A stretch of 64,000 nt of DNA. Source: Halorubrum salsamenti (lineage in GTDB: Archaea > Halobacteriota > Halobacteria > Halobacteriales > Haloferacaceae). Numbering within the stretch: position 1 is the first letter of the stretch; every line of letters starts with the position of its first letter. Location of the stretch: the NCBI RefSeq assembly GCF_007671685.1, contig NZ_VCNL01000001.1, positions 496,001 to 560,000 on the forward strand, in the 5' to 3' direction. Of the stretch, positions 8,546 through 63,260 are shown in pieces. The position numbers and the translations under genes were made by a program. The notes under the pieces are model-generated. The model ran no database searches. It was not told the origin of the DNA and saw only the letters and a list, made by a program, of their open reading frames with translations.

Positions 8546-9361
8546 TCACGCGTCCCCGTTCGAGAGGAGCCCGGTGTACATCAGCCGGCGAACGATCGCG
8601 ACGAGCCCGTTGTCGAACCCCCTCCCGAACACCGCCTGCTCGTGATCGTGGCCGATCCCCAAGTCCTCGTGAAACGAACTCACGAGGATCGTGTTGCGGT
8701 CGACGAGGAGGAGCCGGCGGATCACCGTCTCGTCGCCGGTCTCGGCCGAGCTACTCAGCCACTCCAGCCCGGAGGCGAACACCTTCGCGCCGGGGAGTTC
8801 GCGTTCGACGCGCTCTCGCAGCGGCTCGTCCGTGATCCCGATCACGACGCTGACGTCTCGATCCCCGGCGGCCTGCAGGCGTTCCTGTAGCTTCGGGGTG
8901 TACGCCGACTCGTCGCCGATCACGAGAATGACCTCGTCGCCGGACTCGTCGACGAGCTGTCGGGTCCGGCTGGTTATCGCCGAGTCCCCGGACAGCGACC
9001 ACACCTCGTGGGTGACCTCCGTCTCCTCGGACGGGGCCGCCGGTTCGATCGTCCGGAGCGTCGCCCGGAGCGAATCGGTGCGTTCCTCGTACTCGCGCCT
9101 GAGCGTCTCGGCCGCCTCGTCGATGGAGACGGCGCGGAACCGCTGCGGGTTCGCGTGCTGGATCTCGACTAACCCCTTCGTTTCCAAGACTCGGACCGCG
9201 TCGTAGACCCGCGTGCGGGGAACCTCGGAGATCTCGCTGATCTCCTTCGCGGTCCCCGTCGGGAGCCGAGTGAGAGCGACGAACGCCTTGGCCTCGTACT
9301 CTTTAAGTCCGAGCTCTTGGAGCAACTCGATCGCTTGTTCGTGATTCGATAGATCATTCAT
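8546..9361 (-). CDS. TrmB-family transcriptional regulator (trmB1)
   Basis: A 272-aa regulator with an N-terminal TrmB winged helix (residues about 10-90: LGLKEYEAKAFVALTRLPTGTAKEI, then EVPRTRVYDAVRVLETKGLV). The C-terminal effector-like domain is about 180 residues and contains VILVIGDESAYTPKLQERL and LLLVDRNTILVSSF. Haloarchaeal TrmB proteins control sugar and central carbon genes by binding TACT-N7/8-GAGTA; a matching site lies 19 bp upstream of this start (9380-9395), suggesting autoregulation. Of the possible starts, the ATG at 9361 was chosen because it begins just before the winged helix. It is transcribed towards aglF and divergently from a paralogue at 9748. Confidence 0.88.
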   Translation of the reverse strand: MNDLSNHEQAIELLQELGLKEYEAKAFVALTRLPTGTAKEISEISEVPRTRVYDAVRVLETKGLVEIQHANPQRFRAVSIDEAAETLRREYEERTDSLRATLRTIEPAAPSEETEVTHEVWSLSGDSAITSRTRQLVDESGDEVILVIGDESAYTPKLQERLQAAGDRDVSVVIGITDEPLRERVERELPGAKVFASGLEWLSSSAETGDETVIRRLLLVDRNTILVSSFHEDLGIGHDHEQAVFGRGFDNGLVAIVRRLMYTGLLSNGDA

Positions 9362-9379
9362 GGGTCCCAACCATTCCGC

Positions 9380-9395
9380 TACTGACAATTGAGTA
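9380..9395. promoter_or_regulatory. TrmB operator-like site TACT-N7-GAGTA
   Basis: The sequence is TACTGACAATTGAGTA, an exact match to the published Halobacterium TrmB consensus (TACT, 7-8 nt, GAGTA). It lies 19 bp upstream of the trmB1 start codon. That the site works is inference; the match is direct. Confidence 0.65.
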
Positions 9396-9653
9396 GCTAC
9401 TGCGGATTTGATCTCCCACGTGAAAATCACTTCCCCTTCTGAACCCCCATCGGCGCCGAACCGCACACGCGGTGACTCCATGATCGTCCCCTATCGCGGC
9501 GCTCCGGGCTCCGAAGAGGCGTCATGGAGAGGAGAGAGATCGGCGCCCGATCGGCGCCAGTGGTCACCACAGCGATCTCGTCGGGGTCAGATCCGATCCG
9601 AATTAACTCATATAATCACAATAAGAATATATCCCGGGGACACGAAACGGTCG

Positions 9654-9674
9654 ATGGCACACGGGTTCAGATAG
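9654..9674 (+). other. Possible leader micro-ORF (six codons plus stop)
   Basis: ATG followed by five sense codons and TAG, encoding MAHGFR. A TATA-like box at 9626-9632 would place the transcription start at or next to this ATG, so it could be a leaderless upstream ORF in the trmB2 transcript. The first nine bases are the same as the MAHK gene starts at 13688, 51970 and 62232. Chance cannot be excluded for such a short ORF. Confidence 0.3.
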
Positions 9675-9703
9675 GGTCCCAACCACTCTGCGCCCGCGTG
9701 CCC

Positions 9704-9722
9704 GACTACCCCTCGGGTAGTC
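9704..9722. promoter_or_regulatory. Perfect inverted repeat upstream of trmB2
   Basis: GACTACCC-CTC-GGGTAGTC, with two 8-bp arms, lies 25 bp before the trmB2 ATG. The position fits an operator or a short 5' hairpin controlling trmB2. It differs from the TACT-N7-GAGTA site, so it could bind another protein. Confidence 0.5.
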
Positions 9723-9747
9723 TTCGACCGAGAGGACGCCCCTTCAG

Positions 9748-10533
9748 ATGAGTTTCAACAATTCGGACGACCCGCGATCGACCGCCGTCGACCAGCTCGA
9801 AGCGTTCGGCCTGAGTACCTACGCGGCCAGGACGTTCGTCGCGCTGGCCGGTCTCGGCGAGGGGACCGCCAAGGACGTGAGCGCGCTGGCGGAGGTCCCC
9901 CGTACGCGCGTCTACGACGCGACCGCCGAACTCCGAGAGCACGGTCTCGTCGACGTTCAGCAGTCCACGCCAAAGCGGTTCACCGCGGTGTCGGCGGAGA
10001 CCACCGGTCGACGGTTCCGCCGGGAGTACACGCACCGGGCGGACGCGCTGACGGAGGCGCTCGACGGGATCGAGCCGGTGACACCGAACGCGGAACAGCG
10101 CGGCGTCTGGACGGTCACGGGGCGGGAGATGGTGTCGGACCGGGTCGTGGAGTTCGTCGACGGCGCGAGCGAGGAAGTCGTCCTCGTGACGCTCGACGCC
10201 CTCCTGACCGACGACGTCGCCAGCGCCCTCCGGAGCGCGACGGACCGTGGCGTCGCCGTCCGGGTATGCGGGATGGATTTCTCGGCGACGGAGGGGAGCG
10301 GCGATCGCCTGCCGGACGGGTGCGGCTTCGAGTCTTCCCGGACGTGGAGCGGGGTCCCCGCCGGGCGGCTCCTGATGGTCGATCGCAGTCGGACGCTCGC
10401 GAGCGTGGTGGTGGACGGCGACGGAGAGCACCCGCCGGGCGAACGCGACGAGACCGCGATCTGGGGCGCCGGCGACAACAACAGCCTCGTGGTCGTGCTG
10501 AAAGCGATGTTCGCGTGGCTCAACGGCGAATAG
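9748..10533 (+). CDS. TrmB-family transcriptional regulator (trmB2)
   Basis: A 261-aa paralogue of the divergent trmB1. The winged helix (residues about 14-95) has the same layout: LEAFGLSTYAARTFVALAGLGEGTAKDV, then EVPRTRVYDATAELREHGLV and an FRREY linker. The C-terminal domain has VVLVTLDALLTDDVASALRSATDRGVAVRVCG and a conserved LLMVDRSRTLASVVV, and ends in a hydrophobic helix. The two proteins share architecture but differ in the effector domain, so they probably sense different ligands. The ATG at 9748 is the only good start. It is followed 129 bp later by a HalOD1 gene. The role in glycan or sugar metabolism is inferred from the neighbourhood. Confidence 0.86.
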   Translation: MSFNNSDDPRSTAVDQLEAFGLSTYAARTFVALAGLGEGTAKDVSALAEVPRTRVYDATAELREHGLVDVQQSTPKRFTAVSAETTGRRFRREYTHRADALTEALDGIEPVTPNAEQRGVWTVTGREMVSDRVVEFVDGASEEVVLVTLDALLTDDVASALRSATDRGVAVRVCGMDFSATEGSGDRLPDGCGFESSRTWSGVPAGRLLMVDRSRTLASVVVDGDGEHPPGERDETAIWGAGDNNSLVVVLKAMFAWLNGE

Positions 10534-10662
10534 CGAGCCGGTCTGTCACCCGTGTCCTTACAAACGTTCTTCCCCTCGGCGCCGTGATGCAGCATATAGT
10601 GGCTGACACATCCCCGGGGAGCGACGACGCAGACGGGATGGACGACTGAGATCAGCACTCGA

Positions 10663-10989
10663 ATGGATATGACTTTCAATACCGTGAACCAAGCGGGAGA
10701 CGTGGAAGATAGTGAGCCGTCGGATACCGTTCAGGCCGCGTGGGACAGTTCCGGATCCCCAAGTATGGCCGTCATGGAGGCGGTCGCGGCCGCGACCGGA
10801 CGGAACACGATGGAGATGCCGAGTCTGTACGACACCCTCGACGTCGAAGCGCTGGACGGCCTCCTGACCTCCGAACGGGCCGCGGCGAACGGAAACGTCG
10901 CCGTCTCGTTTACGTACGACGGGGCGTACGTCTGGATCGACAGCAGTGGCGCGATCGAAATCGACCCGAACGCGGCTCGTTCCGAGTAA
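10663..10989 (+). CDS. HalOD1 output-domain protein
   Basis: A 108-aa acidic protein. Residues about 35-103 match the haloarchaeal output domain 1 (HalOD1) pattern: an AVMEAVAAATGRNTMEMPSLYDTLDVEALDGLL helical half, followed by a short beta half ending in VSFTYDGAYVWIDSSGAIEI. The domain is common as a stand-alone signalling partner in haloarchaea; its molecular role is unknown. Two start codons are possible, 10663 or 10669 (third codon). Three more HalOD1 proteins occur in the window (33425, 59020, 63746). Confidence 0.8.
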   Translation: MDMTFNTVNQAGDVEDSEPSDTVQAAWDSSGSPSMAVMEAVAAATGRNTMEMPSLYDTLDVEALDGLLTSERAAANGNVAVSFTYDGAYVWIDSSGAIEIDPNAARSE

Positions 10990-13500: not shown

Positions 13501-13650
13501 CACCTCGTTAACAGCGCCTTAATATCGTCCTAACTGCTCCACGGACTGGGAGAATTCCCCGCAAAGCCGCACCTCGACGCCGAAACCGCCTCTCCGTCGA
13601 TCCGGTTAGTGAGATGAACAGTCATCAAGTGATGAACATATAAGTAACGA

Positions 13651-13687
13651 TATACTTATTGCGGTTAACCTTGGATTACCATCCGCA
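13651..13687 (+). promoter_or_regulatory. MAHK-type promoter and leader, copy A
   Basis: TATACTTATTGCGG (13651-13664) followed by TTA, GGATTA and CCGCA directly before the ATG. With TATA at 13651-13658 the transcript would start about 7 nt before the ATG. From 13652 into codon 8 the sequence is 52/58 identical to copy B at the other Tat gene (complement of about 51949-52006), far beyond chance for unrelated genes. Confidence 0.65.
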
Positions 13688-13906
13688 ATGGCACACAAGC
13701 TGGCACACAACGGCGGTAGCGACCGCTCTACGACGTCATCTGACGATGGCCGGAAACGGCGACTTACCCGGCGGCAGTACGTTAAGCTCGGCAGCGCAAC
13801 TGCAGCGAGTCTCCTGATCGGCGGGGCGTCGGTCAGCGGGTCGACGGGCGCGACGACGGACACCGGCGAGCTCTTCTGGACCGACTTCAGCGACGGATCG
13901 CTATGA
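13688..13906 (+). CDS. Detached Tat signal peptide ORF of the following pectate-lyase-fold protein
   Basis: A 72-aa product: MAHKLAH N-terminus, polar linker, then a twin-arginine signal (LTRRQYVKLG followed by the hydrophobic SATAASLLIGGASV) and a short mature stretch ending FSDGSL. It stops at a TGA that overlaps the ATG of the next ORF (ATGA, 13903-13906). Related secreted proteins normally carry the Tat signal on the same polypeptide. This therefore looks like a -1 frameshift between signal and enzyme, either a natural mutation, a sequencing error or programmed slippage. Its start-codon region is fully complementary to the loop of the putative RNA at 30004-30078. Confidence 0.75.
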   Translation: MAHKLAHNGGSDRSTTSSDDGRKRRLTRRQYVKLGSATAASLLIGGASVSGSTGATTDTGELFWTDFSDGSL

Positions 13907-16611
13907 CGGTCCTGAACGTCCAAGATTTCGGCGCGGTCGGGGACGGCTCGACCGACGACACCGCCGCGATCCAAGACGCGATCGACGCGGCGGGCGACGG
14001 CGACGAGGTGTACGTCCCCGCGACCGGGAGCTCCTACCTCGTGACGGGATGGGACAGCATCATCGACGTCGATTCGTCGAACGACGGCGTCCGGCTCTAC
14101 GGCAACGGCAGGGAGAGCCGGATCGAGTACGCCGGCGGTAACGACGGACGGAACGTGTTCATGGTCAGCGTCGACCCCGGAGACGAGGGCCTCGAAGGTT
14201 TCGTGCTGGAGCACCTGACGCTCGACGGGGGACTCGACAGCGTCGACGGCGACCCGAACGTCGCCTCGGCGGTCCAGGTTCGGAGCCCGGAATCCGGCGC
14301 CGAGGGCAACGTGGACATCACGGTCCGCGACGTGCGGGCGACGAACTGCTACGGCAACGGCATCGACGTCGGCGCCGCGGGAACGACGGTCGTGAACTGC
14401 ACGGCCGAGAACAACCGACAGCACGGGTTCGGGATGGAGACCAGCTACGACCCGTTCCAGGACCCGCCCGTCCGGTTCGAGCGCTGTCTCTCTCGTGGAA
14501 ACGGCTTCGGTGGGGGGTACTACGGCATGGACCTGTCGGGGGGAAAGGCCGTGGCCGAGGACTGCGTGCTCCGCGACAACGAGGGCGCGGGCGCGACCAA
14601 GTGCTCGGTCGGGAGCGAACACATGGTGTACCGGCGCTGTCGGCTGGCGAGCAACGAGGGTCACACCTTCCAGAACACGAGCGGAGAGGGCGCGACCGTC
14701 GTCTTCGACCGGATCGTCGCCGAGGACAACGTGGACTGCATGCGGCTGACGGAGGACGGAGTCTACCGGGTCCCGGCGGGCTCGGAGCTCGTGTTCGTCG
14801 ACAACGGGCCGGACGTTCGCGGCGGGCTGTACCTCACCCACGAGTCGGTGTTGGAGGCCGGCGACGCGACGCTCTGGATCAACGGCCAGACCGGCGGGGC
14901 CGGCCTGCGCGCCAGCTCTGACGGGAGCGGGAGCCGCGTCGGGACCTACTACCACGCGAACAACGAGGACGGGGCGGTCTCGAACGATCAGCACATCTCG
15001 TTCGGGACGGTCGCGAGCGATCTGAAGACCGACCTCGACGCCGTTCCGACCGCCGATCAGGTCGGCGCGTGGACCGGCGCCAAAAGTGACGCCGGTAGTG
15101 ACGACGGGACGACCGACGACGGGTCGACCGACGACTCGCCGTTCGAGGCCTGGACCCCGCGGTGGGACGCCGACGCCAGCGACTGGGGCGTCGTCGCGGG
15201 CGACGAGTACGAGGGCGGGCACGCGCTCCGGTACGACCACGACGGCACGGACGTGGCCCGGCGGGCGATCTCCTGGGACGCCGTCGGCACCCCCTCGGAC
15301 GTCGAGGTCCTGGACAGGGTCCGGGTTCCGTCGTTCGACGCCGACGGGGACCGCGGGTACCACGCCCGGGTGCACCTCCGGTCGTCGTACGCCGGCGGGG
15401 AGGAGCTCGGCTACTGGATCGAACTGGAGGACGCCGAGGACGGGTTCAGGCTGGCCAAGTACTCCGCCGACGGGATGGAGACGCTGGCACGGTTCGGCAC
15501 GCCCGCAGAGGGGACGTTCTTCTACCGCCGGTTCCGTGCCGAGGGCGACCGCCTCCGGGTCAAAGTGTGGGAGGCGACCGAGTCCGAACCCGACGGCTGG
15601 GACGTCGACACCACCGACGCGGACCACGCCGACGGGTGGGTCGGGCTCGGCTCCTTCGACCCGGGCGCGTTCCAGACGGACGTGCTCGGCGTCGCGACCG
15701 ACGGCGGAACGGTCCAACTCGAGTCCGACGCTGCGCAGCCGACGGTGTCCTGGCGGGGTCCCGTCGACGGGGACACGGTCGGCGGGAGCGTTCCGGTGCG
15801 GATCGAGGCCGCGGACGGCGCCGGGTCCAGCGAGGGCGTGACCGTCGAGTACCGAGCCGCCGGCGGCTCCTGGACGGCGACGACCTACGACGCCGAGAGC
15901 GACACCCACGAGGCGACGTGGGACTCCACCGACGTCGCCGCGGGCGACGTCTCGCTCGAGGCGCGCGCGACGAGCGACGACGGGTCGACCGCCGGCGCGA
16001 CGGTCTCGGTGACCGTCGACAACGACCCCGAGGTCGTCTCGCTGGAGGCCCGGGACCTGACGGCCGACGGAGCGACGCTCGCCGGCGACCTCCGGGACCT
16101 CGGCGGAGATGATGAGGTCCGCGTGCGCTTCGAACTGCGCGCCGCGGACACGGACGCCTGGACGGCCGTGGGCGGCGAGACGCTCGGTTCGCCGTCGGAA
16201 TTCACGCACATCGTGTCGGGACTCAACCCGGGCGGCGCGTACGAGTTCCGCGCCGTCGCCGACGGGGACAACGCGACCGTTTCCGGGGAGGCCGTCCCGT
16301 TCGCGACGCGCGAGGACGCGGACGGGAACGACGCACCGACGGTCGATCGGTTCGAGGTCACCGATCGGAGCGGGAACAAGTGGACGCGGTTCGACGTCGA
16401 CTGGGCGGTGACCGACGGCGACGGCGACCTCGACGCGGTCGTCTCGACGCTCAAACGCAACGGCCGAACGGTCGCCGCGGAGAGCACGACCGTGTCGGGG
16501 GACTCGGCGAGCTACACTCACGTACTCCGCGTTCGCGGGAAGGTCGACGCCGTCCACCTCTGCGTGAACGACACGTCGAACGCGACGGCGATGCGGAAGC
16601 GAGATATCTAA
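13903..16611 (+). CDS. Secreted pectate-lyase-fold multidomain protein, lacking its own signal peptide
   Basis: 902 aa. Residues 1-30 contain the Pectate_lyase_3 hallmark VQDFGAVGDGSTDDTAAIQDA, which opens a right-handed beta-helix to about residue 400. Then come a DDGTTDDGSTDD linker, a laminin-G-like domain of about 190 residues, an Ig-like domain (VSWRGPVDGDTVGGSVPV) and fibronectin-III-like domains to the end. Such proteins bind or cleave acidic polysaccharide at the cell surface. No signal peptide exists in this frame; it sits in the overlapping upstream ORF (13688-13906). Without a frame change the enzyme would stay inside. Translation could be coupled through the ATGA overlap, but that would not attach the signal. 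Catalytic residues are not identifiable. Confidence 0.85.
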   Translation: MTVLNVQDFGAVGDGSTDDTAAIQDAIDAAGDGDEVYVPATGSSYLVTGWDSIIDVDSSNDGVRLYGNGRESRIEYAGGNDGRNVFMVSVDPGDEGLEGFVLEHLTLDGGLDSVDGDPNVASAVQVRSPESGAEGNVDITVRDVRATNCYGNGIDVGAAGTTVVNCTAENNRQHGFGMETSYDPFQDPPVRFERCLSRGNGFGGGYYGMDLSGGKAVAEDCVLRDNEGAGATKCSVGSEHMVYRRCRLASNEGHTFQNTSGEGATVVFDRIVAEDNVDCMRLTEDGVYRVPAGSELVFVDNGPDVRGGLYLTHESVLEAGDATLWINGQTGGAGLRASSDGSGSRVGTYYHANNEDGAVSNDQHISFGTVASDLKTDLDAVPTADQVGAWTGAKSDAGSDDGTTDDGSTDDSPFEAWTPRWDADASDWGVVAGDEYEGGHALRYDHDGTDVARRAISWDAVGTPSDVEVLDRVRVPSFDADGDRGYHARVHLRSSYAGGEELGYWIELEDAEDGFRLAKYSADGMETLARFGTPAEGTFFYRRFRAEGDRLRVKVWEATESEPDGWDVDTTDADHADGWVGLGSFDPGAFQTDVLGVATDGGTVQLESDAAQPTVSWRGPVDGDTVGGSVPVRIEAADGAGSSEGVTVEYRAAGGSWTATTYDAESDTHEATWDSTDVAAGDVSLEARATSDDGSTAGATVSVTVDNDPEVVSLEARDLTADGATLAGDLRDLGGDDEVRVRFELRAADTDAWTAVGGETLGSPSEFTHIVSGLNPGGAYEFRAVADGDNATVSGEAVPFATREDADGNDAPTVDRFEVTDRSGNKWTRFDVDWAVTDGDGDLDAVVSTLKRNGRTVAAESTTVSGDSASYTHVLRVRGKVDAVHLCVNDTSNATAMRKRDI

Positions 16612-51535: not shown

Positions 51536-51970
51536 TTACCGTCCGAACGCCTCCCCGTCGAGCGAGACCTCGGCGTCACCGTCGACGGTGACGTCGTGGA
51601 GTTCGCCGCGGAACCGGTAGCCGCGGTCGTCGCTCGTGACCGCGCCCTCCGCGGTGGACCCCGAGATGTGGCCCGTGACCCGGCTCGTTTCATCGTCCGC
51701 GACGAGTTCCCCGCCGACGGTCACCTCGTACGTGGACGGGGTCCCCGACCCGCGGATCCGGATCCGTCGTTCCGAGTCGTCGACGTCGTCCGCCGACGCC
51801 GCGACGGTCCCGTTCGTCCGACCGGTAAGCGTCGCGAGCGTCGCGATCGCCGCCCCGCTGAGGCGGGCGTATCCCCGGCGCGTGACGCCGGTGGATCCGG
51901 ACTCGTCGCGACCGTTATCAGGAGGTTCTCCCCCCGTCGACTGCAGCCTGTGTGCCAGCTTGTGTGCCAT
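51536..51970 (-). CDS. Small Tat-secreted protein, MAHK-type start
   Basis: 144 aa. Starts MAHKLAH, then polar, then a twin-arginine signal (TRRGYARLSGAAIATLATL) and a mature domain of about 90 residues. That domain has the beta pattern RIRIRGSGTPSTYEVTVGGE, SGSTAEGAVTSDDRGYRF and LHDVTVDGDAEVSLDGE, which I recognise as the C-terminal domain often fused to haloarchaeal secreted pectate-lyase-like proteins. Here it stands alone. Its start region is identical over 27 nt (CCGCA through codon 8) to that of 13688, and the 15-nt start-codon stretch (complement of 51955-51969) pairs perfectly with the RNA loop at 30038-30052. Confidence 0.82.
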   Translation of the reverse strand: MAHKLAHRLQSTGGEPPDNGRDESGSTGVTRRGYARLSGAAIATLATLTGRTNGTVAASADDVDDSERRIRIRGSGTPSTYEVTVGGELVADDETSRVTGHISGSTAEGAVTSDDRGYRFRGELHDVTVDGDAEVSLDGEAFGR

Positions 51971-51993
51971 TGCGGCCGTTAATCCTATGCTAA

Positions 51994-52006
51994 CCGCAAT
52001 AAGTAT
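51994..52006 (-). promoter_or_regulatory. MAHK-type promoter element, copy B
   Basis: ATACTTATTGCGG on the minus strand, 24 bp before the start codon of the small Tat gene. Matches copy A (13652-13664) exactly. A TATA box here predicts a leader of about six nucleotides. Confidence 0.6.
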
Positions 52007-52103
52007 TCGGTTTTTGATACATCCGGGGAAAAATGAATATCCGGTCAGATGAGAGGTGTCTGCGTCGGGATTCGACCGCGATAAACCGACTGACCGCGTT
52101 CAG

Positions 52104-53252: not shown

Positions 53253-53480
53253 TATAGCCCCCACACGAGGTCGAAAGAATAGTATACGTCTGCTAACAGA
53301 ACCGCCGATCGCCGAACCGGTCGGAACGCGGAGCGAACCGATCGGATCACAGCGGCGTCGACGCCGATCGAGCCGCCGGTCAGCGACGGAACACCGTGAC
53401 CGCCGGTTGTCGGTGTTCCCGAACTGTTAGAACCCGTTAATATCATTATATACAAGGTAGTGTACCGTGTGGGTGGGTCC

Positions 53481-54098
53481 ATGAGTGCGGGAAATTCGGG
53501 GTCACTTAGCGGGGATCAACTCAAGACCGATTCCGAGACATCGACCGACGACGTATCGAACTTAGAGGAGATCGGGAAGTCGTCCCGATCGAACGGGTCG
53601 GCCCTCGAAAAGGGCGAGATCTTCGATCTCTTGAAGAACAGCCGCCGGCGCAGCATCATTCAGTACCTCCGCGCGAACGACGGGTACGCGGAACTCAACG
53701 AGGTCGCCGAGCACATCGCGGCGGACGAGAACGACATCACCGTCCGGGAACTCTCGTCCGACCAGCGGAAGCGGGTGTACATCGGCCTCTACCAGTGTCA
53801 CCTCCCGAAGATGGACTCGCTAGGGGTCGTCGAGTACGACAAGAACCGCGGGACGATCGAACTGCAGGACTCGGTGTCCCAGCTGTTGGCTTATATGGAC
53901 CCCGTCGACGACGACGAAAGCGGGAGCTCGGACCCAGATCGGCGCTGGCTTACGCCTGCGATCGCCGCCACCGTCGTCGCTCTCGTCGGACTCGGGACGC
54001 TCGGGATCGGCGCCCTTTCGGCCGTGCCGGCGGCCGCCTGGACCGTGCTGTGCGTCGTCGGCATCCTCGCCATCATCGGAGTCCAATACCTGAACTGA
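53481..54098 (+). CDS. DUF7344-type winged-helix regulator with two C-terminal membrane helices
   Basis: 205 aa. After a Ser/Thr-rich 45-residue leader the winged helix (KGEIFDLLKNSRRRSIIQYL, ELNEVAEHIAADEN, SSDQRKRVYIGLYQCHLPKM, LGVVEYDKNRGTIEL) is complete, followed by two helices near the C-terminus (about 160-205). A membrane-anchored regulator of unknown trigger. TATTATATAC (about 53446-53455) promotes it. Its paralogue with the same layout lies 54 bp downstream on the opposite strand. Confidence 0.82.
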   Translation: MSAGNSGSLSGDQLKTDSETSTDDVSNLEEIGKSSRSNGSALEKGEIFDLLKNSRRRSIIQYLRANDGYAELNEVAEHIAADENDITVRELSSDQRKRVYIGLYQCHLPKMDSLGVVEYDKNRGTIELQDSVSQLLAYMDPVDDDESGSSDPDRRWLTPAIAATVVALVGLGTLGIGALSAVPAAAWTVLCVVGILAIIGVQYLN

Positions 54099-54152
54099 CC
54101 GCGGAGTACCCTCCGGGCTTTTCTCTCCCCTCCTCTCGCCCCGCCGAACGTC

Positions 54153-54683
54153 TCAGTCGTTCACTAACTGTTCGAGGAACGAGTACTCCCCGCGTTTGAC
54201 GGTCGTCTCGTAGTACTGGAACACCGCCAGCGACAGGACGGAGCCGGCGAACAGCAGGCTCAGCACCGCCGAAATCGCACTCAGGAGCTGGGCGACGCCG
54301 ATCGCTACGCCGACCAGCGCGAGCGCGCCGTAGTAGAGCGCCCACTGGCGGTCCGGCCCGGTGTCCTCGTTCAGCACGTGAGCGACGTCCGCGACCCGAT
54401 CGGTGAGCGTGACGGTCTTCTCGTCGCCGTCGTACTCCACCAGCCCGACCTGTTCCAGCTTCGGAATGTGGGTCTGGTACAGCGAGATGTAGAACCGCTT
54501 AACCACGTCGCTGTCGACCGGTTCGTCCGTCTCGTCCGTCTCGTCCGCCGCCGTGTCCCGGGCTAGGGAACGAAGGTCCGCACGTCCGCCGCGCCGATGC
54601 AGGTGGTACAGGATCTGCCGGCGTCGTGAACTGCTCAATACCTCGAACACTTCGTCTTTCGTGAGTTCCTCCGTCGAGTTCAT
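54153..54683 (-). CDS. DUF7344-type winged-helix regulator with C-terminal membrane helices
   Basis: 176 aa from the ATG MNSTEELTKDEV. Winged helix: VFEVLSSSRRRQILYHLHRRG, VKRFYISLYQTHIPKLEQVG, VEYDGDEKTVTLTDRV. Two helices follow (WALYYGALALVGVAIGV and LSLLFAGSVLSLAVFQYY). A paralogue of the gene at 53481, facing it tail to tail. Longer starts upstream lack protein-like sequence. Function unknown; likely a transcription regulator tethered to the membrane. Confidence 0.82.
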   Translation of the reverse strand: MNSTEELTKDEVFEVLSSSRRRQILYHLHRRGGRADLRSLARDTAADETDETDEPVDSDVVKRFYISLYQTHIPKLEQVGLVEYDGDEKTVTLTDRVADVAHVLNEDTGPDRQWALYYGALALVGVAIGVAQLLSAISAVLSLLFAGSVLSLAVFQYYETTVKRGEYSFLEQLVND

Positions 54684-54997
54684 GGGGTAGTCTCGTGATC
54701 GGACGGCAACTTTCGCCCCCTCTCTCCCGGCGGGGACGGGCTGATGGCAAACACATGATGCCTCACTCAATTTGTTATCACGTCCATATCGCGGATTAGC
54801 CGAGGCGAACAGCCGTCCGCGACGAGCCCATCCCCGGTCGTCGCTCCCGTCTCGTGGCCCGGCGTCCCGGCCGTCGCTCGTCGCTCGCACCACCCGCGCC
54901 GAACCCGTGCCGCACCCGCGTTCAACCGCGGTAGTCCCCCCTGACGTTCCCGTTTATGCGTACATAACGAAACTCTTGGGGGGGCCACTGTCGCAAC
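54684..54997. promoter_or_regulatory. Divergent control region, wHTH (left) and PadR (right)
   Basis: 314 bp without a gene. The right end has the PadR promoter with TTTATG (about 54953-54958) and an inverted repeat at 54954-54967. The left end has the promoter of the regulator at 54683. The middle is GC-rich and holds nothing I recognise. Confidence 0.5.
54954..54967. promoter_or_regulatory. Inverted repeat overlapping the PadR TATA box
   Basis: TTATGCGTACATAA, two 5-bp arms with a 4-nt spacer, 30 bp before the PadR ATG. PadR proteins typically repress their own promoter at such sites, so it is a likely autoregulatory operator. Confidence 0.4.
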
Positions 54998-55282
54998 ATG
55001 ACTGATCCCCTTTTCGAACTGACTAGCTTCCAACGAGACCTCCTCTACGTGGTCGTCGGGGAGACGGACCCGTCGGGCCAGGAGATCAAAGCTGAGCTCG
55101 AGACGGTGATGGACGACATCACCCACGGACGGCTGTATCCGAACCTCGACACGCTGGTGAAGAAGGGCTACGTCGAGAAGGGGGAGATCGACCGCCGGAC
55201 CAACTTCTATCAGGTGACCGAGAAGGGGTTCGAGGCGCTTCAGGCGCGGCGGGACTGGGAGGATCAGTACGTCGATCTGTGA
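54998..55282 (+). CDS. PadR-family transcriptional regulator
   Basis: 94 aa. A compact winged helix: SFQRDLLYVVVGETDPSGQE, GRLYPNLDTLVKKGYVEKGE, INFYQVTEKGFEAL. The linker 'HGRLYPNLD' is PadR-typical. It lies directly before the GT2-wecB-wecC operon (221 bp) and may control it; targets are inference. Regulator length is that of single-domain PadR proteins. Autoregulation through the inverted repeat is probable. Confidence 0.86.
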   Translation: MTDPLFELTSFQRDLLYVVVGETDPSGQEIKAELETVMDDITHGRLYPNLDTLVKKGYVEKGEIDRRTNFYQVTEKGFEALQARRDWEDQYVDL

Positions 55283-55502: not shown

Positions 55503-56612
55503 ATGTACGACGGACGGAGCGTCGGGGTCGTCGTTCCCGCGTACAACGAGGCGGGACACGTCGGCGAGGTGATCGAGACGATGCCGAGATACGTCGACCG
55601 GGTTTACGCGGTCGACGACGCGTCGACCGACGGGACGTGGGCAGAACTCCGCGACTGCGCCCAGCGAGTCAACGGTCGGGCCGCCGAGTCGTCTCTCGGC
55701 CGCGGTGCCGGCCCGCCGCACGTCGTCACGATCCAACACGATCGGAACCGCGGCGCCGGAGCGGCGGTAAAGACCGGCTACTCGCGCGCGCTCGACGACG
55801 GGGTCGACGTCATCGCCGTGATGGACGGTGACGGACAGATGGACCCGGCCCACCTCGAACGGATCGTCGCCCCGGTCGCCGCGGGCGAGGTGACCTACGC
55901 GAAGGGGAACCGGCTCAGCTCCCGGCGAGACTACGAGCGGATGTCGCGCTGGCGGCTGTTCGGAAACGTCGTCTTGACGCTTCTGACCCGCGTCTCCAGC
56001 GGGTACTGGGAGGTCTCCGACCCGCAGAACGGTTTCACGGCGATCTCGAACGACGCCCTCAGACGGGTCCGATTCGAGCGGCTCTACGACGAGTACGGCT
56101 TCCTCAACCACCTCCTGTTCGCGCTTAACCTCGACCGAGAGGAGATCGCCGACATCTCCCACCCCTCGGTGTACGGCGACGAGACGAGCAGCATCCGGTA
56201 CTCGACGTTCGTGCCGCGACTCTCGGCGCTTCTGGCCCGGAACTTCGTCGAACGCATCGGGCGGTCGTACGTCCTCCGGCAGTTCCACCCGTTAGTCGTC
56301 TGCTACGCGCTGGGAGCGACGGTCACGCTCACCGGGATCTTCGGGGGGGCCTACGCCCTCGCGTCGGCGGGCGTCGACGCGTTCCTCGGCGGTATGATGT
56401 CGGTCTCCGTCGCGGCCATCGGCGGCCTGCTGTTGACCCTCGGAATGTGGTTCGACGTGTCGGAGAACGACGGCCTCGTTCGGTCCGTCCCCGAGCCACC
56501 GGAGCCGGGACCGGAGGTGGACGCCGACCGAGAGGTCGGAGGCGGCCAGCGGTTCCCCGTCTTCCAAGACGGCGGTGAAGTGGCCCGACCGACGGAGGGG
56601 GAAGCCGAATGA
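55503..56612 (+). CDS. Polyprenol-phosphate-type glycosyltransferase family 2
   Basis: 369 aa. VGVVVPAYNEAGHVGEVIET opens the GT2 fold; the metal site is in VIAVMDGDGQMDPAHL (107-112); the acceptor block DPQNGFTAISNDALR and HLLFALN are those of DPM1/AglJ-type enzymes. Two C-terminal helices (about 275-330) anchor it in the membrane. A low-complexity Pro/Glu tail ends it. It transfers a sugar to dolichol phosphate as the first step of N-glycan assembly; identity of the sugar unknown. First gene of an operon with wecB and wecC (4-bp overlaps). Confidence 0.88.
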   Translation: MYDGRSVGVVVPAYNEAGHVGEVIETMPRYVDRVYAVDDASTDGTWAELRDCAQRVNGRAAESSLGRGAGPPHVVTIQHDRNRGAGAAVKTGYSRALDDGVDVIAVMDGDGQMDPAHLERIVAPVAAGEVTYAKGNRLSSRRDYERMSRWRLFGNVVLTLLTRVSSGYWEVSDPQNGFTAISNDALRRVRFERLYDEYGFLNHLLFALNLDREEIADISHPSVYGDETSSIRYSTFVPRLSALLARNFVERIGRSYVLRQFHPLVVCYALGATVTLTGIFGGAYALASAGVDAFLGGMMSVSVAAIGGLLLTLGMWFDVSENDGLVRSVPEPPEPGPEVDADREVGGGQRFPVFQDGGEVARPTEGEAE

Positions 56613-57709
56613 CCGAAGTCGCCTTCGTCCTCGGAACGCGGCCAGAGATCATCAAGCTCGCACCCGTTATCCAGGCGTGCCAGCGGCGACGGATCGAGTA
56701 CGTGATCATCCACACCGGACAGCACTACTCCGACAGCCTCGACTCGGTGTTCTTCGACCAGCTCGACCTGCCGGACCCGGACTACGAGCTGGCCGTCGGC
56801 TCCGGGTCTCACGGGGAACAGACCGCGGAGATGCTCGTCGGGGTCGAACGCGCTCTCACCGAGGCCGCGCCCGACGTCGTACTGGTCCAGGGAGACACCA
56901 ACAGCGTGCTCGCCGGCGCGATCGCCGCCAGCAAGATGGACACCGAACTGGGCCACGTCGAGGCGGGACTCCGGAGCTTCGACCGAGAGATGCCCGAGGA
57001 GACGAACCGGGTACTCGCCGACCACGTCGCGGACTACCACTTCGCGCCGACCGACCGCAGCAAGGGGTACCTCCTCCGCGAGGGGATCTCCGCGTTCCGG
57101 ATCACCGTTACGGGAAACACCGTGGTCGACGCGATCGAGCGGAACCTCGACATCGCCCGCGAGAAGAGCACGGCCGTCGCGGACCTGGGTCTCGACGGCT
57201 CGCGGTTCTTCCTGATGACGGCCCACAGAGCGGAGAACGTCGACGACGAAGAGCGGTTCAGAGGCCTCCTCGCGGGTGCCCAGCGTGCCGGCGACGCCCA
57301 CGACGTCGACGTGATCTACCCGATGCATCCCCGGTCCCGGAGCCGCGTCGAGGAGTTCGGCATCGACCTCCCGCCGCGCGTCCGGGCGGTGGAGCCGCTG
57401 GAGTACCTCGACTTCCTGCGGGCGGCGTCGTCGGCCGACCTCATTCTGACCGACTCCGGCGGGGTCCAAGAGGAGGCCTGTATCCTCGGCGTCCCCTGCG
57501 TGACGATGCGGGACAACACCGAGCGCTCCGAGACCGTCGACGTGGGAGCGAACCGACTCAGCTCCTGTGACCCGGAGCGGATCGAGCGGAGCGTCGCGGA
57601 GATGCTCGGCGCGGACGACTGGGAGAACCCGTTCGGTGACGGCGACGCCGCCGAGCGGATCCTGCGGGCGCTTCCGTTGGACGCCCGATCGAAGGAGGTG
57701 CCGCAATGA
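56609..57709 (+). CDS. wecB: UDP-N-acetylglucosamine 2-epimerase (non-hydrolysing)
   Basis: 366 aa. UDP-GlcNAc to UDP-ManNAc. Seen: VLGTRPEIIKLAPVIQACQR, IIHTGQHYSDSL, VLVQGDTNSVLAGA, LGHVEAGLRSFDREMPEETN with the catalytic acids (Asp/Glu), VDAIE, FLMTAHRAENVD, and LTDSGGVQEEACILGVP. Full length for WecB. Overlaps wecC start (ATGA). Confidence 0.94.
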   Translation: MTEVAFVLGTRPEIIKLAPVIQACQRRRIEYVIIHTGQHYSDSLDSVFFDQLDLPDPDYELAVGSGSHGEQTAEMLVGVERALTEAAPDVVLVQGDTNSVLAGAIAASKMDTELGHVEAGLRSFDREMPEETNRVLADHVADYHFAPTDRSKGYLLREGISAFRITVTGNTVVDAIERNLDIAREKSTAVADLGLDGSRFFLMTAHRAENVDDEERFRGLLAGAQRAGDAHDVDVIYPMHPRSRSRVEEFGIDLPPRVRAVEPLEYLDFLRAASSADLILTDSGGVQEEACILGVPCVTMRDNTERSETVDVGANRLSSCDPERIERSVAEMLGADDWENPFGDGDAAERILRALPLDARSKEVPQ

Positions 57710-58992
57710 GCACCGTCTGCGTCCACGGGCTGGGGTACATCGGGCTGCCGACGGCCGCGATGCTCGCCAACTCGGGCCACGACGTCCGCGGCTACGACGT
57801 CGACGAGGGTCTCGTCGCGACCCTCCGCGGCGGCGACGTCAGCCTGAACGAACCGGGCCTCTCCGAGTTCGTCTCGCGCGCGCTCGACGGCGGCGGCCTG
57901 ACGGTCGTCGACGAGGTGCGGCCCGCGGAGTACCACCTCGTCTGCGTCCCGACGCCGTTCGACGAGGCCGAGCGGCGGGCCGATCTGGAGTACATCCGGG
58001 CCGCGTCGAGGGCTATCCGCCCCGTCCTCCGCGAGGGGGACACGGTCATCCTCGAGTCGACGGTCCCGCCGGGAACGACCGCCTCGCAGATGCGACCGAT
58101 CTTAGAGGAGTCGGGGCTGAGCGCGGACGATGAGTTCGGGCTGGCCCACTGCCCGGAGACGGTCCTCCCCGGCAACATCATCGCGGAGCTCCGGGCGAAC
58201 GACCGCATCGTCGGCGGGATGACCGACGAGGCCACGGCGGCGTCGGTGGCGCTGTACGAGTCGTTCGTCGACGGGGAGATCCGGACGACCGACGGGCCGA
58301 CGACCGCCGAGTTCGTCAAGCTCATTCAGAACACGTTCCGAGACGTGAACGTCGGATTGGCGAACGAGATCGCCCGGCTCGCCCACGATTACGGGATCGA
58401 CTCCCGCGAGGCGATCGAGATGGCGAACGGTCACCCGCGGGTGAACCTCCTCCGGCCCGGGCCGGGCGTCGGCGGCCACTGCCTCCCGATCGACCCGTGG
58501 TTCCTCGGAGACGGCTCCGATAACCTCGACCTGATCGCGGCCGCGCGGCGGGTGAACGACGGGATGGTCGGATTCGTCGTCGAGCTCCTCGAAGAGCTGC
58601 TGCCGGAGCTCGACGGGAAGCGCGTCGCCGTGTTCGGCGCTGCGTACAAAGGAAACGTCGACGACACCCGAATGAGCCCGGGGCTCAAACTCGCCCGCGA
58701 GCTCCAGCACGGATCGAAACAGCTGAAGCCGGCGACGGACGGGGGAGCCGGTCGCGTCGAGGTCGCGGTCCACGATCCGTACGTCGAGGACCCGACGCTG
58801 AATCTCGAAGACGCGACCACGGCCGTGACGGGCGCACACGCGCTCGTGATCACGACCGATCACGACGAGTTCGAGGAGTTGGATCCGAACCGGTTAGCGG
58901 AGCGAATGGCGGAATCGAACGTGGTCGACACGAAGGGGATACTGGACGCCGATCGGTGGCGCCAAGCGGGGTTCTCGGTCCGACGGGTCTGA
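57706..58992 (+). CDS. wecC: UDP-N-acetyl-D-mannosamine dehydrogenase
   Basis: 428 aa. UDP-ManNAc to UDP-ManNAcA with two NAD. Rossmann motif GLGYIGLPTAAM (residues 8-19), GDVSLNEPGL, ESTVPPGTT, HCPETVLPGNIIAELRANDRIVG (split), KLIQNTFRDVNVGLANE, and the catalytic Cys in GGHCLPIDPWFL. UDP-binding C-terminus GAAYKGNVDDTRMSPG. The product is a hexosaminuronate for the surface glycan, as in the N-glycans of some methanogens and halophiles. Last gene of the operon; 27 bp to the convergent HalOD1 gene. Confidence 0.94.
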   Translation: MSTVCVHGLGYIGLPTAAMLANSGHDVRGYDVDEGLVATLRGGDVSLNEPGLSEFVSRALDGGGLTVVDEVRPAEYHLVCVPTPFDEAERRADLEYIRAASRAIRPVLREGDTVILESTVPPGTTASQMRPILEESGLSADDEFGLAHCPETVLPGNIIAELRANDRIVGGMTDEATAASVALYESFVDGEIRTTDGPTTAEFVKLIQNTFRDVNVGLANEIARLAHDYGIDSREAIEMANGHPRVNLLRPGPGVGGHCLPIDPWFLGDGSDNLDLIAAARRVNDGMVGFVVELLEELLPELDGKRVAVFGAAYKGNVDDTRMSPGLKLARELQHGSKQLKPATDGGAGRVEVAVHDPYVEDPTLNLEDATTAVTGAHALVITTDHDEFEELDPNRLAERMAESNVVDTKGILDADRWRQAGFSVRRV

Positions 58993-59450: not shown

Positions 59451-61955
59451 TCAGGTCTCCCCGTTCGGCTGTCCCTCGAACAGGGCCGAAAAGAGCTTCC
59501 GCTCGGTCGTTCGGAGGTGCCTGTTGAACGTCGGCTGCGTGATCCCCATCGCGGACGCGACCTCCTCGCCCGTGTTCGTCCGCGGCCACTCGAAGTAGCC
59601 CGCCAGGTGTGCGGTCCGCGCCGCCTCGCGTTGCCTGTCAGTGAGCCGGTCGAGGACCGCAGACGACTCGACGGACTCCGGTTCGGTCCGCTCTGCGTCC
59701 CGGCGAGAGAGCAGTTCGACCGCGTCGTACCGGTCGCCGAGAGCCTCCACGAACGACCGGACGTCTGCGGTCCGCGGGAGCGTGACCGCGACGTCGATAC
59801 CGGACGGTGTCGCGAGGAGACGCTCGACGGTCGCTCCGTGAGTCGCCAGTCGATCGACGACGGTCTGTTCGCTGACCGAGAGCTCCGCTTGCGAACCCGA
59901 CTCACCGTCGGGTCGTCGGACCGAATCGACGCCGGGGACCGTCGAGAGATCCGACTCGGGGTCGACGTCGGAGTCGACGTACACCAGGGACCGATCGCCC
60001 CCCTGTGGCACCGTTCCGTCGACTCGCATCGGCTCCGAGAGCGCGGACGCGATCCGGACGAGAAGCGCGTCCGGAGCGTCGACGTGTACCTCGAGTTCGA
60101 CGGCCGACTCGCTCCGAAGCGACCGTCTCGTTTCGATGCTGTTGATGGCGTCGGCGACGGTGTTCCCGAGTTCCACGAGCAGCTCGCCGAACTCGGCGTC
60201 GAACGCTCCGCTCCGATCGGCGTACACCGAGAGGACCCCGTACTCGAGGTCGTTGTACGCCAGCGGAACGGCGATGACGGAGCGGTATCCGTACACGAGC
60301 GCACGCTCTCGCCAGGGAGACTCGTGCAGCCGCTTCGAGACGTCGGGAACGGCGACCACCTCCGCGGTGTCGAGCGCGCGGCGGGTCGGCTCGTTCCGGA
60401 ACTCGGACGAGTCGTCTCGACCGTTAGCGGCGGTAAAGCGGAGGTCGTCGAGGTATCCCTCGTCTCTCCCGCCTCGAGCGATCGGTTCGAGGTCACCGCC
60501 CGTGAGATACGTCTCTCCGAACCAGGCGAACTGGACCGGGTCGGCGTCGACGAGCAGTTCACAGACGGCATCGCCGACCTCCTGAAGCGTGTCGGCGTCG
60601 ACGAGCGCCGCGTTGACGCGTCGGATCAGGTCGTTGAGGTCGTGGAGCCGCCGGAGCGTCTGGTTCCGTTCCGTGAGGGCGTCGCTCTGATGCGAGAGCT
60701 CCGCCTCGCGCTCCACGCGCCCGAGCGCCGCGACCGCGTTGGCCGCCAACAGCTCCACCGATTCCTTGGCGTTACTCACCTCCGGATCGCCCGAGACCTC
60801 GACGTAGAGGAGTCCGTACTCATCGAGGGTCGCGTATAACGTCCGAGCGGGAGACGTCGAGTCCCCCTCGACTCGTTCGACGACGCGACCGCTCGGGCGC
60901 ATCGTATCGTCGTCGTCCGGTTCCGCGAAGTCGTCCCTGTCGTCCGGGATTTTCACTCCGTCTTCTCCCGTCAGGAACTCCTCCCAAACGGTGCTTCCCG
61001 GGCCGCGCGGCTCGGGGAGGTCACCCGACGCGACGACCGGTTCGAGCACGGATTCGACTTCGTCGAACGAATACACGACGAGCGTCGCATCCGGCCAGAC
61101 CGCCGCGGCGACGTCGATGATCGTCTCGTAGACCGCCCGGTCCGTGTCCGCTCGGAGGAGTCGACGGGCCGACCGATTCAGCTCGCGGAGCGTCCGCTCG
61201 CTCCGGAGACGGTCGGTTAAGTCCCTGATAATACCGACGCGCTGTTGGCGACCGCTCGCGAACTCGACGGTCGAGAACTGCGTCTCGATCGGGAGGTCCT
61301 CGCCGTCGGCCGTCCGGATCGTCGACTCGATGACGCCGATATCCGAGCCCTCTCCGCGGAGTCGCTCGATGATCGTGTCGGCCATCGAGATAGTTTCGGA
61401 GTTGGCCAGCATCGACGCGTGAGAGCCGACGAGCTCTTCGCGGCTGTAGCCCGTCATCGCCGTCACCGCGTCGTTGACCATGGTGATGACGAACGCTTCG
61501 TCGAGGACGAACACGCCGTCGTCGAGGGTCTCGAGGATCCGACTCGAGCGCTGGAGCTCCCGCCGCATCGAGACGCGCTCGCTGACGTCTCGGACGGCCA
61601 GCGCGACCGCGTCCTCGACGGGGATCACCGTTATCTCGAACGACCCGCCCCGGTCGAGGGCGACTTCGAAATCCGCGATATCGCCGGTGCGGAACGCCTC
61701 CTCGACGGCGGTAGCGATCTCCGCTCCCGTCGGTGGGGCGATCCGGCTCACGTCGTACTCCGAGGGGTCCCCGTCGATACCGAGCAGATCGGTGACCGCC
61801 TCGTTCCAAGCGATCACGGTCGAAGCGCTGTCGACGACGAGCAACCCCGCGTGCGTCCGGTCGAGAAACTCCGCGATCTGCCGAAACGACTCGGTTCCCA
61901 CGGGTCCGAAATCAGTCAGATCTGTTTCCCCCTCATCAGATCCGTCGTTAGACAC
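59451..61955 (-). CDS. Bat-type sensor-regulator: PAS-PAS-GAF-GAF-HTH_10
   Basis: 834 aa, one-component regulator. Residues about 25-130 and 140-255: two PAS domains (LLVVDSASTVIAWNEAVTDL; GVFVLDEAFVITMVNDAVTA). About 265-420 and 450-610: two GAF-type domains (LLRADTDRAVYETIIDVAA; VDADTLQEVGDAVCELLV). From about 620: Bat-associated domain; 770-830: HTH_10 (LTDRQREAARTAHLAGYFEW, GEEVASAMGITQPTFNRHL). In Halobacterium, Bat activates bacterio-opsin and isoprenoid/retinal genes in response to oxygen and light. It is divergent from the terpene-synthase-like gene at 62232 across 276 bp of AT-rich DNA, so that gene may be its target (inference). Confidence 0.9.
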   Translation of the reverse strand: MSNDGSDEGETDLTDFGPVGTESFRQIAEFLDRTHAGLLVVDSASTVIAWNEAVTDLLGIDGDPSEYDVSRIAPPTGAEIATAVEEAFRTGDIADFEVALDRGGSFEITVIPVEDAVALAVRDVSERVSMRRELQRSSRILETLDDGVFVLDEAFVITMVNDAVTAMTGYSREELVGSHASMLANSETISMADTIIERLRGEGSDIGVIESTIRTADGEDLPIETQFSTVEFASGRQQRVGIIRDLTDRLRSERTLRELNRSARRLLRADTDRAVYETIIDVAAAVWPDATLVVYSFDEVESVLEPVVASGDLPEPRGPGSTVWEEFLTGEDGVKIPDDRDDFAEPDDDDTMRPSGRVVERVEGDSTSPARTLYATLDEYGLLYVEVSGDPEVSNAKESVELLAANAVAALGRVEREAELSHQSDALTERNQTLRRLHDLNDLIRRVNAALVDADTLQEVGDAVCELLVDADPVQFAWFGETYLTGGDLEPIARGGRDEGYLDDLRFTAANGRDDSSEFRNEPTRRALDTAEVVAVPDVSKRLHESPWRERALVYGYRSVIAVPLAYNDLEYGVLSVYADRSGAFDAEFGELLVELGNTVADAINSIETRRSLRSESAVELEVHVDAPDALLVRIASALSEPMRVDGTVPQGGDRSLVYVDSDVDPESDLSTVPGVDSVRRPDGESGSQAELSVSEQTVVDRLATHGATVERLLATPSGIDVAVTLPRTADVRSFVEALGDRYDAVELLSRRDAERTEPESVESSAVLDRLTDRQREAARTAHLAGYFEWPRTNTGEEVASAMGITQPTFNRHLRTTERKLFSALFEGQPNGET

Positions 61956-62231
61956 ACCCGATAACGTGCGGCAGTGCTGATAAACACCCCAATATGCTCT
62001 CGAATTTATATATTGAGTTGACAGAACCCGGTTTCGGCGCCGATAATATCATATTTAATTTTTACTTATCGAGTAGAAACCACACAGTAGGGCTGAAACC
62101 GCCGATATAGAGGTTTTAAAAATACCATTTAAAATATGAGAGTATCCATGATATTCACAGAATATCTCTTTAATTAACTCATCGGTATCTTGAACCAAAC
62201 AGTTAAGGCGGTTATTCATATATTAACGGCT
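61956..62231. promoter_or_regulatory. AT-rich divergent region between Bat-type regulator and terpene-synthase-like gene
   Basis: 276 bp, much richer in A/T than the surroundings. No gene. It contains AACAGTTAAGGCGGTTA at 62199-62215 and the MAHK-type leader ATATTAACGGCT before the ATG, plus several TATA-like stretches (AATTTATATATT near 62003; TTTTAAAAATA near 62115). Any of these could promote either gene. Confidence 0.55.
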
Positions 62232-62243
62232 ATGGCACACAAG
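62207..62243 (+). promoter_or_regulatory. MAHK-type leader and start region, copy C
   Basis: GCGGTTA at 62209-62215, ATATTA, ACGGCT, then ATGGCACACAAG (62232-62243). It matches copies A and B in the order of blocks, with 3 nt fewer before the ATG. TGGCACACAAGC (62233-62244) is complementary to the RNA loop over 12 nt. Confidence 0.5.
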
Positions 62244-63260
62244 CCTCTGGGGGAGACCGCCGTGCAGATGCCGGCCGAGACGCCGAGTCGGAACGACTAC
62301 GAGCGGACGATCGCCGACGTCGACCTTCCGCCGACGGTACAGACGTTCGCGGAGCGGTACGATCGGGTCCTCGGCGAACGCGACGTGTTCCTCTGGAAAT
62401 GGATCCATAACCTCTTCGACGAGTTCACGCTGTCGTCGGTCCCCGCCGGCGCGAAAGAGGAGGTGTTCGAATCGAAGACGCTCCTGACGATCCTCGTTAC
62501 GGTCCTCGACGATCTCGCCGAGCGGAACGGCGAGAGAGCGACGTTCGACGTCGCGCGTCGGATCCCGTTTCGGACGGCTTCGACCGCTGACTCGGCGCAG
62601 TCGGACAGCGAGCCGACTCGGGACGACGTCGACGCGGCCGTGATCGATTTCCTCGCCGATCTCTGGACCGAGATCGAGACCTCGATCGCGGCCGCACCGC
62701 GGTACGACGAGTTCGTTGACGTCTTCGAGTACGACTTCCGCCAGACGTGTAACGCCATGGAGTACTCCCGGCTCTTGAACCACAACATGTCGATGGCGAA
62801 CCGGACGGAGGCGGAACGGTACGACGCGTATAACATGACCGTGTTCCCTTACGCGTGTATCGATCTCATGCACTCCCCGTCGTTCGACCGCGGGGAGCTC
62901 GGTGCGCTCCGGAGCCTCCTCTGTGAGCTCCAACAGATGGCCCGAATCGGCAACTGGATCACGACGTGGGAACGAGAGCTGGCGGAAGGAGACGTCAGTT
63001 CCGGCGTGGTCGTCTGCGCGCTTCGTCGAGGAGTTATCACTCCCGAAGAGGTGACCGGCACCGACGAGACTGACGTCGAGCGCCTCGTCGAGCGGATCAG
63101 AACGAACGGGATCGAGTCCGAGTTCGTCCGGGAGTGGGAGATCCGCAATCAGACCGTTCGGAAACGGACCGCGGAGATCCGCAGCGTCGACTGCGAAGCC
63201 GTCGTCGACGGGATCCGTACGGTCATGAACCACCACCTCGCGAGTGAAGGGAGCAAGTGA
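62232..63260 (+). CDS. Class I terpene-synthase-like protein (isoprenoid synthase fold)
   Basis: 342 aa, all helical. TLLTILVTVLDDLAERNGE places a DDxxE motif at residues 93-97. GNWITTWERELAEGD provides N241-x3-T245-x3-E249, the NSE triad of class I terpene cyclases. Spacing of 148 residues and overall length match bacterial and fungal class I terpene synthases. A hydrophobic DLMHSP stretch (about 211-216) lies between. The start used is the second in-frame ATG, MAHKPLGETAV, because it matches the MAHK leader of other genes; the 14-residue extension from 62190 is unlikely. Substrate would be a prenyl diphosphate, perhaps FPP or GGPP. Family membership is inferred from motifs only; I know no characterised haloarchaeal example. 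Confidence 0.6.
   Translation: MAHKPLGETAVQMPAETPSRNDYERTIADVDLPPTVQTFAERYDRVLGERDVFLWKWIHNLFDEFTLSSVPAGAKEEVFESKTLLTILVTVLDDLAERNGERATFDVARRIPFRTASTADSAQSDSEPTRDDVDAAVIDFLADLWTEIETSIAAAPRYDEFVDVFEYDFRQTCNAMEYSRLLNHNMSMANRTEAERYDAYNMTVFPYACIDLMHSPSFDRGELGALRSLLCELQQMARIGNWITTWERELAEGDVSSGVVVCALRRGVITPEEVTGTDETDVERLVERIRTNGIESEFVREWEIRNQTVRKRTAEIRSVDCEAVVDGIRTVMNHHLASEGSK

Follow-up and report, generated by a model that had tools for sequence, protein, structure and literature searches.

A conserved module of promoter and first codons shared by non-homologous genes around a polysaccharide locus of Halorubrum salsamenti

RESULTS

Genes at the locus

The window, i.e. the whole 64,000 nt stretch of Halorubrum salsamenti DNA analysed in the present study (G000:C1:496001-560000, G+C content 67.6%), belongs to a genome of 3.67 Mb and contains three genes, termed A, B and C, that carry related 5' ends. 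The locus between A and B is conserved in four relatives (G109, G120, G123 and G140), and its enzymes comprise an NTP transferase, an epimerase, a UDP-GlcNAc 2-epimerase, a UDP-sugar dehydrogenase and a glycosyltransferase. Regulator genes are dense in this polysaccharide locus (8546-10989 and 53460-55282), where we found two TrmB and two DUF7344 genes together with a PadR and a HalOD1 gene. The genes needed here are as follows.

13688-13906, + strand: A leader ORF, 72 aa, with a Tat-type signal and the tail WTDFSDGSL
13903-16611, + strand: beta-helix ORF, 902 aa, without a signal of its own (PF12708, 2e-13; PF13229)
51536-51970, - strand: B, 144 aa, Tat-type; a small beta-sandwich is predicted for about residues 66-140
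56609-58992, + strand: UDP-GlcNAc 2-epimerase and UDP-sugar dehydrogenase (PF02350; PF03721/PF00984/PF03720)
62232-63260, + strand: C, a 342-aa terpene-synthase-like protein, no Tat signal seen (PF19086, 5.4e-5, just under the cut-off)

The A leader ORF and the beta-helix ORF overlap by 4 nt (ATGA), so that A is followed by an operon as its cargo; the overlap is conserved. Tat-leader ORFs that precede signal-less beta-helix ORFs are 65-76 aa long and end in a tail like TDFSEG or TDFSEY; the 4-nt [AG]TGA overlap was present in six Halorubrum A genes, in a second G120 paralogue (L114), in G209 (L181) and in G181 (L168), and the two ORFs are separated by a short ORF in G326 and by a gap in G385. 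Because the leader is a separate ORF in these last two distant relatives, a programmed -1 frameshift from leader to beta-helix protein is disfavoured. The A-type leader ORF may serve the beta-helix protein as a Tat signal given in trans, or the two ORFs may be translationally coupled. In G109, the A copy (L033:4786, - strand) has decayed, its leader stopping after 35 aa and running into the beta-helix region, with the promoter and MAHKLAH intact.

For B, we found no Pfam match, and its predicted beta-sandwich of approx. 75 residues (model pLDDT about 70-90 there) gave no Foldseek match at E≤0.001 and a best VIA-align Z of 5.8. Stretches like it presumably form the C-terminal parts of other haloarchaeal secreted proteins.

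A common module in front of different genes

Copy A (13652-13709) and the complement of copy B (51949-52006) are identical at 52 of 58 positions, exactly as counted in an earlier note on this DNA, and copy C (62209-62244, CGGTTATTCATATATTAACGGCTATGGCACACAAGC) keeps the blocks that the same note had described, in the same order. On both strands of the whole window, no further ungapped 58-mer reached 30 or more positions identical to A. The identity of A and B is 1.0 across 0 to +19 and falls to background values of 0.14-0.31 from +20; it had been said to run through codon 8, and it does cover codons 1-7 plus one base, but breaks inside codon 8 (AAC against AGG). The proteins behind these starts are indeed otherwise unrelated where C is compared with A and B, whereas A and B have a Tat-type N-terminus, and only this, in common. 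Exact matches to ATGGCACACAAG numbered three in the window (chance expectation 0.03 at ≤1 mismatch), and the same three places were the only ones in the genome, compared with none for the reversed control.

The promoter alignment (25 copies, 39-42 columns, no internal gaps) has a majority sequence of AACnAAACACTTATTGCGGTTAnnGnnnGATTAAC and invariant letters at A1, C3, A7, T11-A13, T21, A22 and T32. The promoter profile, R1, from which the three rows of the C orthologues of G120, G123 and G140 were left out, holds promoter columns only and no coding letters. At a threshold of E≤10 in the home genome, R1 matched four places, namely A, B, C and a further gene, D (C1:625370, outside the window), which encodes a beta-helix protein starting MARKLVSEDV. 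A, B and D all have Tat-type leaders, starting MA[HR]K or MAHR. The module as a whole extends from about -70 to +16/+21, i.e. approx. 90 bp, and consists of a distal box, a BRE/TATA region, a GGTTA-N7/8-TTAAC box and the first five to seven codons, located as follows.

13618-13625, + strand: distal box of A, ACAGTCAT, at -70 from the ATG
13646-13660, + strand: BRE/TATA region of A, AACGATATACTTATT (R1 match 13646-13687, E 3.5e-8)
13661-13678, + strand: proximal box of A, GCGGTTA-N7-ATTA, between TATA and start
13688-13708, + strand: 5' coding box of A, codons 1-7 (MAHKLAH), synonymously invariant in six intact orthologues
52033-52040, - strand: distal box of B, ATATTCAT, at -70 from the ATG
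51998-52012, - strand: BRE/TATA region of B, AACCGAATACTTATT (R1 match 51971-52012, E 1.7e-7)
51980-51997, - strand: proximal box of B, from the alignment
51950-51970, - strand: 5' coding box of B, codons 1-7, synonymously invariant in seven orthologues
62151-62158, + strand: distal box of C, ATATTCAC, at -81 from the ATG
62193-62231, + strand: core promoter of C (BRE/TATA, GGTTA-N8-TTAACG; R1 match E 5.3e-7)
62232-62244, + strand: 5' coding box of C, ATGGCACACAAGC

The distal box follows the pattern A[ACT][ATG][GT]TCA[CT] and was present in 24 of the 25 training promoters and in ten of 15 others; the ten stretches farther upstream that served as controls gave 0-6 of 25 and 0-2 of 15. It lies at -70 in A and B (at the identical position in all seven A orthologues), at -69 in nine of the 15 further copies and at -80 to -82 in the C copies, about one helical turn farther out. 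TTA is invariant at model columns 11-13, and most A, B and D copies read TTAT there, in agreement with a TTWT-type TATA element, with the place of the BRE taken by an A-rich AACnAnA stretch and not by CGAAA. Mean column identity climbs to at least 0.78 from -90 among the A orthologues, and among the B orthologues at -75 to -45, reaching 0.83 from -45. Relative to A and B, the promoter stands 2-3 nt closer to the ATG in C, and 1 nt closer in most D copies, the coding box staying at the ATG. The proximal box has a weak dyad symmetry, with 68% of cells paired, a value that 47 of 500 shuffles equalled or exceeded and that compares with 58% after a slide of +3. An RNA hairpin was also considered and rejected: by eye, not all relatives keep the perfect ATTGCGG...CCGCAAT repeat that A and B have in the home genome, and pair counts for the GGTTA/TAACC dyad are close to those of shuffles.

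Occurrence among relatives

With up to three mismatches, the cassette pattern was found at 15 places in seven of 170 family genomes, all of them in the window's genus. Each of the seven has one A-type and one B-type gene, and G123 carries an extra copy before a beta-helix protein (type D); the cassette-bearing relatives are H. amylolyticum, H. kocurii, H. lipolyticum, H. halophilum, H. aquaticum and Halorubrum sp. CSM-61. Homologues of C are more widespread (50 of 170 family genomes), the nearest of those examined having the same promoter plan and starting MAHE, MVHE, MIHE or similar. The C orthologues of G120, G123 and G140 keep MAHK and TTAACCGG and lack the BRE/TATA and GGTTA pattern.

Across the genus, R1 matched 29 places in 13 of 52 genomes, i.e. 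22 training copies and seven new ones, six of which run straight into ATGGCACGCAAGCTGG; the seventh, in G108 (C53), lies inside a beta-helix-like reading frame and has no coding box. A second profile, R2, matched 18 places in seven of the 392 genomes of the order, and at the threshold used it failed to recover some of the rows on which it was trained (B of G181, A of G326). Two of its places are in G209, from another family and outside both training sets; one precedes an A-type leader and the other a B-type protein, and both start ATGGCACACAGG. The two promoter-only profiles thus gave nine places beyond their training rows, eight of which directly begin ATGGCACRCARG.

The 16-nt coding pattern alone was found at 22 places in 11 of the 392 genomes (12 in the genus and ten outside it), compared with 21 places for the reversed control. 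The possibility that such matches are as frequent as random expectation, raised at the outset, fails in the home genome and holds for the bare count of this coding pattern over the order. Outside the genus, context alone separates true matches from chance ones: eight of the ten places come with the module's gene types or its promoter, and two (G375 and G466) look like chance. The architecture of the module was found in several haloarchaeal families.

Constraint on the first codons

At codons 2-7, synonymous identity was complete both among six A orthologues (90 of 90 informative pairs, against 603 of 769 in the rest of the gene) and among seven B orthologues (126 of 126, against 1698 of 2123), i.e. 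about 79% elsewhere; as complete identity is also seen in a few other six-codon stretches (one of A, from fewer pairs, and three overlapping ones of B), these codons are among the most constrained but are not unique by that measure alone. The three cassettes contain five alanine codons, and each of these is GCA, which makes up 2.5% of the alanine codons in predicted ORFs of the window. Among the C orthologues examined, codon 2 is GCA, GTA, ATA or TCA (alanine, valine, isoleucine or serine), and its third base, A, is kept. The coding box of A survives also in the decayed copy of G109. The proposal that the shared start is selected at the nucleic acid level is supported by the fixed synonymous sites and by the rare GCA at every cassette alanine, and these data suggest that it is the nucleotide sequence of the first codons, as DNA or as RNA, that is preserved and not the peptide. 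The first 21 nt were also more open than their synonymous versions (mean rank 0.80 over 40 copies), a modest difference from the 0.62 obtained for 27 other ATG ORFs with predicted starts.

Candidate regulators

Three regulator genes near B and C were considered as candidates.

53460-54098, + strand: DUF7344 protein near B (PF24035, 1.8e-29)
54998-55282, + strand: PadR-like protein, 94 aa (PF03551, 1.4e-12)
59451-61955, - strand: PAS-GAF-BAT-HTH_10 protein, divergent from C, assigned by domain matches

The R1 promoter is present in 13 of 52 genus genomes, and orthologues of PadR (at least 69% identity, the next match being at 63%) and of DUF7344 (at least 63%, the next at 54%) are each found in all of these 13 and in none of the 39 without it; since PadR, DUF7344 and the promoter mark one locus, and such counts ignore species kinship, the two are candidates only and the binder is not singled out. 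PadR was rejected as the sole candidate because DUF7344 has the same 13 genomes. In the stretches examined outside the genus, G089 has both PadR and a DUF7344 homologue, G385 has PadR, and G181 and G209 each have a DUF7344 homologue.

The BAT/HTH_10 orthologue was found only in the ten genus genomes that have C, against 13 that bear the promoter. C and its divergent regulator gene (59451-63260) form a conserved pair, a homologue of the regulator being present at 24 of 30 haloarchaeal C loci. In G181, a distant homologue (31% identity over 813 aa) is divergent from B; the gene is thus linked to C, and to B in G181, but not to A, B and D in general.

DISCUSSION

We consider it likely that the copies represent an old regulatory module of approx. 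90 bp, common to one regulon of surface- and polysaccharide-related genes. As read from the genes behind the copies, the genes under its control would be, around the polysaccharide locus, an operon of Tat-leader and beta-helix ORFs, other beta-helix proteins exported by Tat, the small Tat-type protein B and the terpene-synthase-like gene C, which suggests that genes around this surface-sugar locus may be switched on together. That a duplicated 5' regulatory module stands before different cargo, as originally proposed, is supported, and its placement under one control is well supported by the shared architecture and by the promoter, PadR and DUF7344 in the same 13 genus genomes.

The further suggestion that the module was recently copied, or moves between genes, did not survive the comparison of relatives. 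The sharp end of identity at codons 7-8 and the 52 of 58 identical positions within one genome speak for it; however, A and B are no closer to each other within genomes (mean likeness 0.779) than between them (0.768), and we saw neither the excess of within-genome likeness nor the varying genomic sites expected of a mobile element. The best partner of A is the B of its own genome in two of seven cases. Both genes occur in the same seven species, their orthologues sit in conserved neighbourhoods of the polysaccharide locus, and other families carry the module as well. A recent or mobile origin is therefore largely refuted, and we regard it as most improbable; the near-equal likeness and the occurrence in several families point to an old duplication that selection has maintained. 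It also seems quite unlikely that the N-termini are simply Tat signal peptides of common descent, conserved as protein, with the likeness of the DNA as a by-product. Although A, B and D do all have Tat-type leaders with similar starts, the fixed synonymous sites and the rare alanine codon argue against this, as do the promoter common to the copies and the start of C, which is not Tat-like yet has the same beginning and in whose orthologues codon 2 varies in amino acid but not in its final A. The coding box might instead belong to a DNA operator that spans the transcription start, as it adjoins the proximal box and the start probably lies 0-3 nt from the ATG, judging from the position of the TATA element. 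The coding box nevertheless stays at the ATG while its distance from the proximal box varies by 1-3 nt, which favours a role in the mRNA, and we hold the operator to be doubtful.

Control of all copies by the BAT/HTH_10 regulator beside C, in the manner of Bat and the bop regulon, would be in keeping with its place at most C loci and beside B in G181, and with the common upstream activator sequence of bop and crtB1 (PMC3184054). Three genomes (G108, G109 and G118), however, carry A and B with paralogues of 32-35% identity as the best matches and no BAT/HTH_10 orthologue. As it is absent from three of the seven genomes with A and B, the BAT-type regulator was rejected as the sole controller, and we think it unlikely that it governs every copy. 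The likeness to the Bat/bop regulon (PMC3184054) lies in a PAS/GAF/BAT/HTH_10 regulator adjoining a terpenoid-type gene and in an upstream element on several promoters; unlike there, A and B occur without an orthologue of the regulator.

The core of the module resembles the Haloferax volcanii basal promoter, which consists of a BRE, a TATA element with the consensus TTWT and a -10 WW, with 72% of Haloferax protein-coding transcripts leaderless (PMC4983044). TTAT stands here in an A-rich, BRE-like setting approx. 30 bp before the ATG, at a spacing that fits a start at or just before it. Since TTAT fits TTWT and most of those transcripts are leaderless, transcription is likely to start 0-3 nt before the ATG, giving an mRNA that would be leaderless or nearly so. 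Compared with that basal promoter (PMC4983044), the module has two additional boxes, distal and proximal, and conserved 5' coding sequence on non-homologous genes. In haloarchaeal mRNAs with very short leaders (hsp70), the bases from -4 to +6 alter expression (PMC4574771); conservation in the module, unlike this start-codon context, reaches +16/+21 and is common to a set of genes. Our search of open-licence papers found no paper on this promoter-plus-start module.

Members of the PadR family are small winged-helix regulators whose genes stand beside their presumed targets. The small PF03551 gene is similarly placed here. A PadR or DUF7344 regulon would be expected to have a palindromic operator, and the dyad seen in the proximal box is a weak one.

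For the regulon, we envisage that PadR, DUF7344 or, where present, the BAT/HTH_10 protein would act at both the distal and the proximal box of a promoter from which transcription would begin within 3 nt before the ATG, giving a nearly leaderless message. The coding box would then work in the mRNA, tied to the AUG, either favouring initiation or serving as an RNA target. Its constancy at the ATG makes it possible, though we put this forward tentatively and at somewhat less than even chances, that the first 16-21 nt are an mRNA element of leaderless transcripts, common to non-homologous genes of the regulon, through which an RNA, an RNA-binding protein or the initiating ribosome would exert joint translational control beside joint transcription.

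Regulons are usually recognised by their upstream sites, whereas the signature described here crosses the start codon and goes on into the coding region, where the synonymous sites are fixed. A likely regulon is thereby defined for a haloarchaeal surface-polysaccharide locus, together with three candidate regulators, and a second testable point is the conserved pairing of a Tat-leader ORF with a beta-helix ORF that lacks a signal. As the genes of the module are probably leaderless, they provide a test case for whether the start of a leaderless archaeal mRNA carries regulatory information. If the AUG-tied mRNA element is real, haloarchaea would be marking a group of transcripts to be translated under common control as well as transcribed together.
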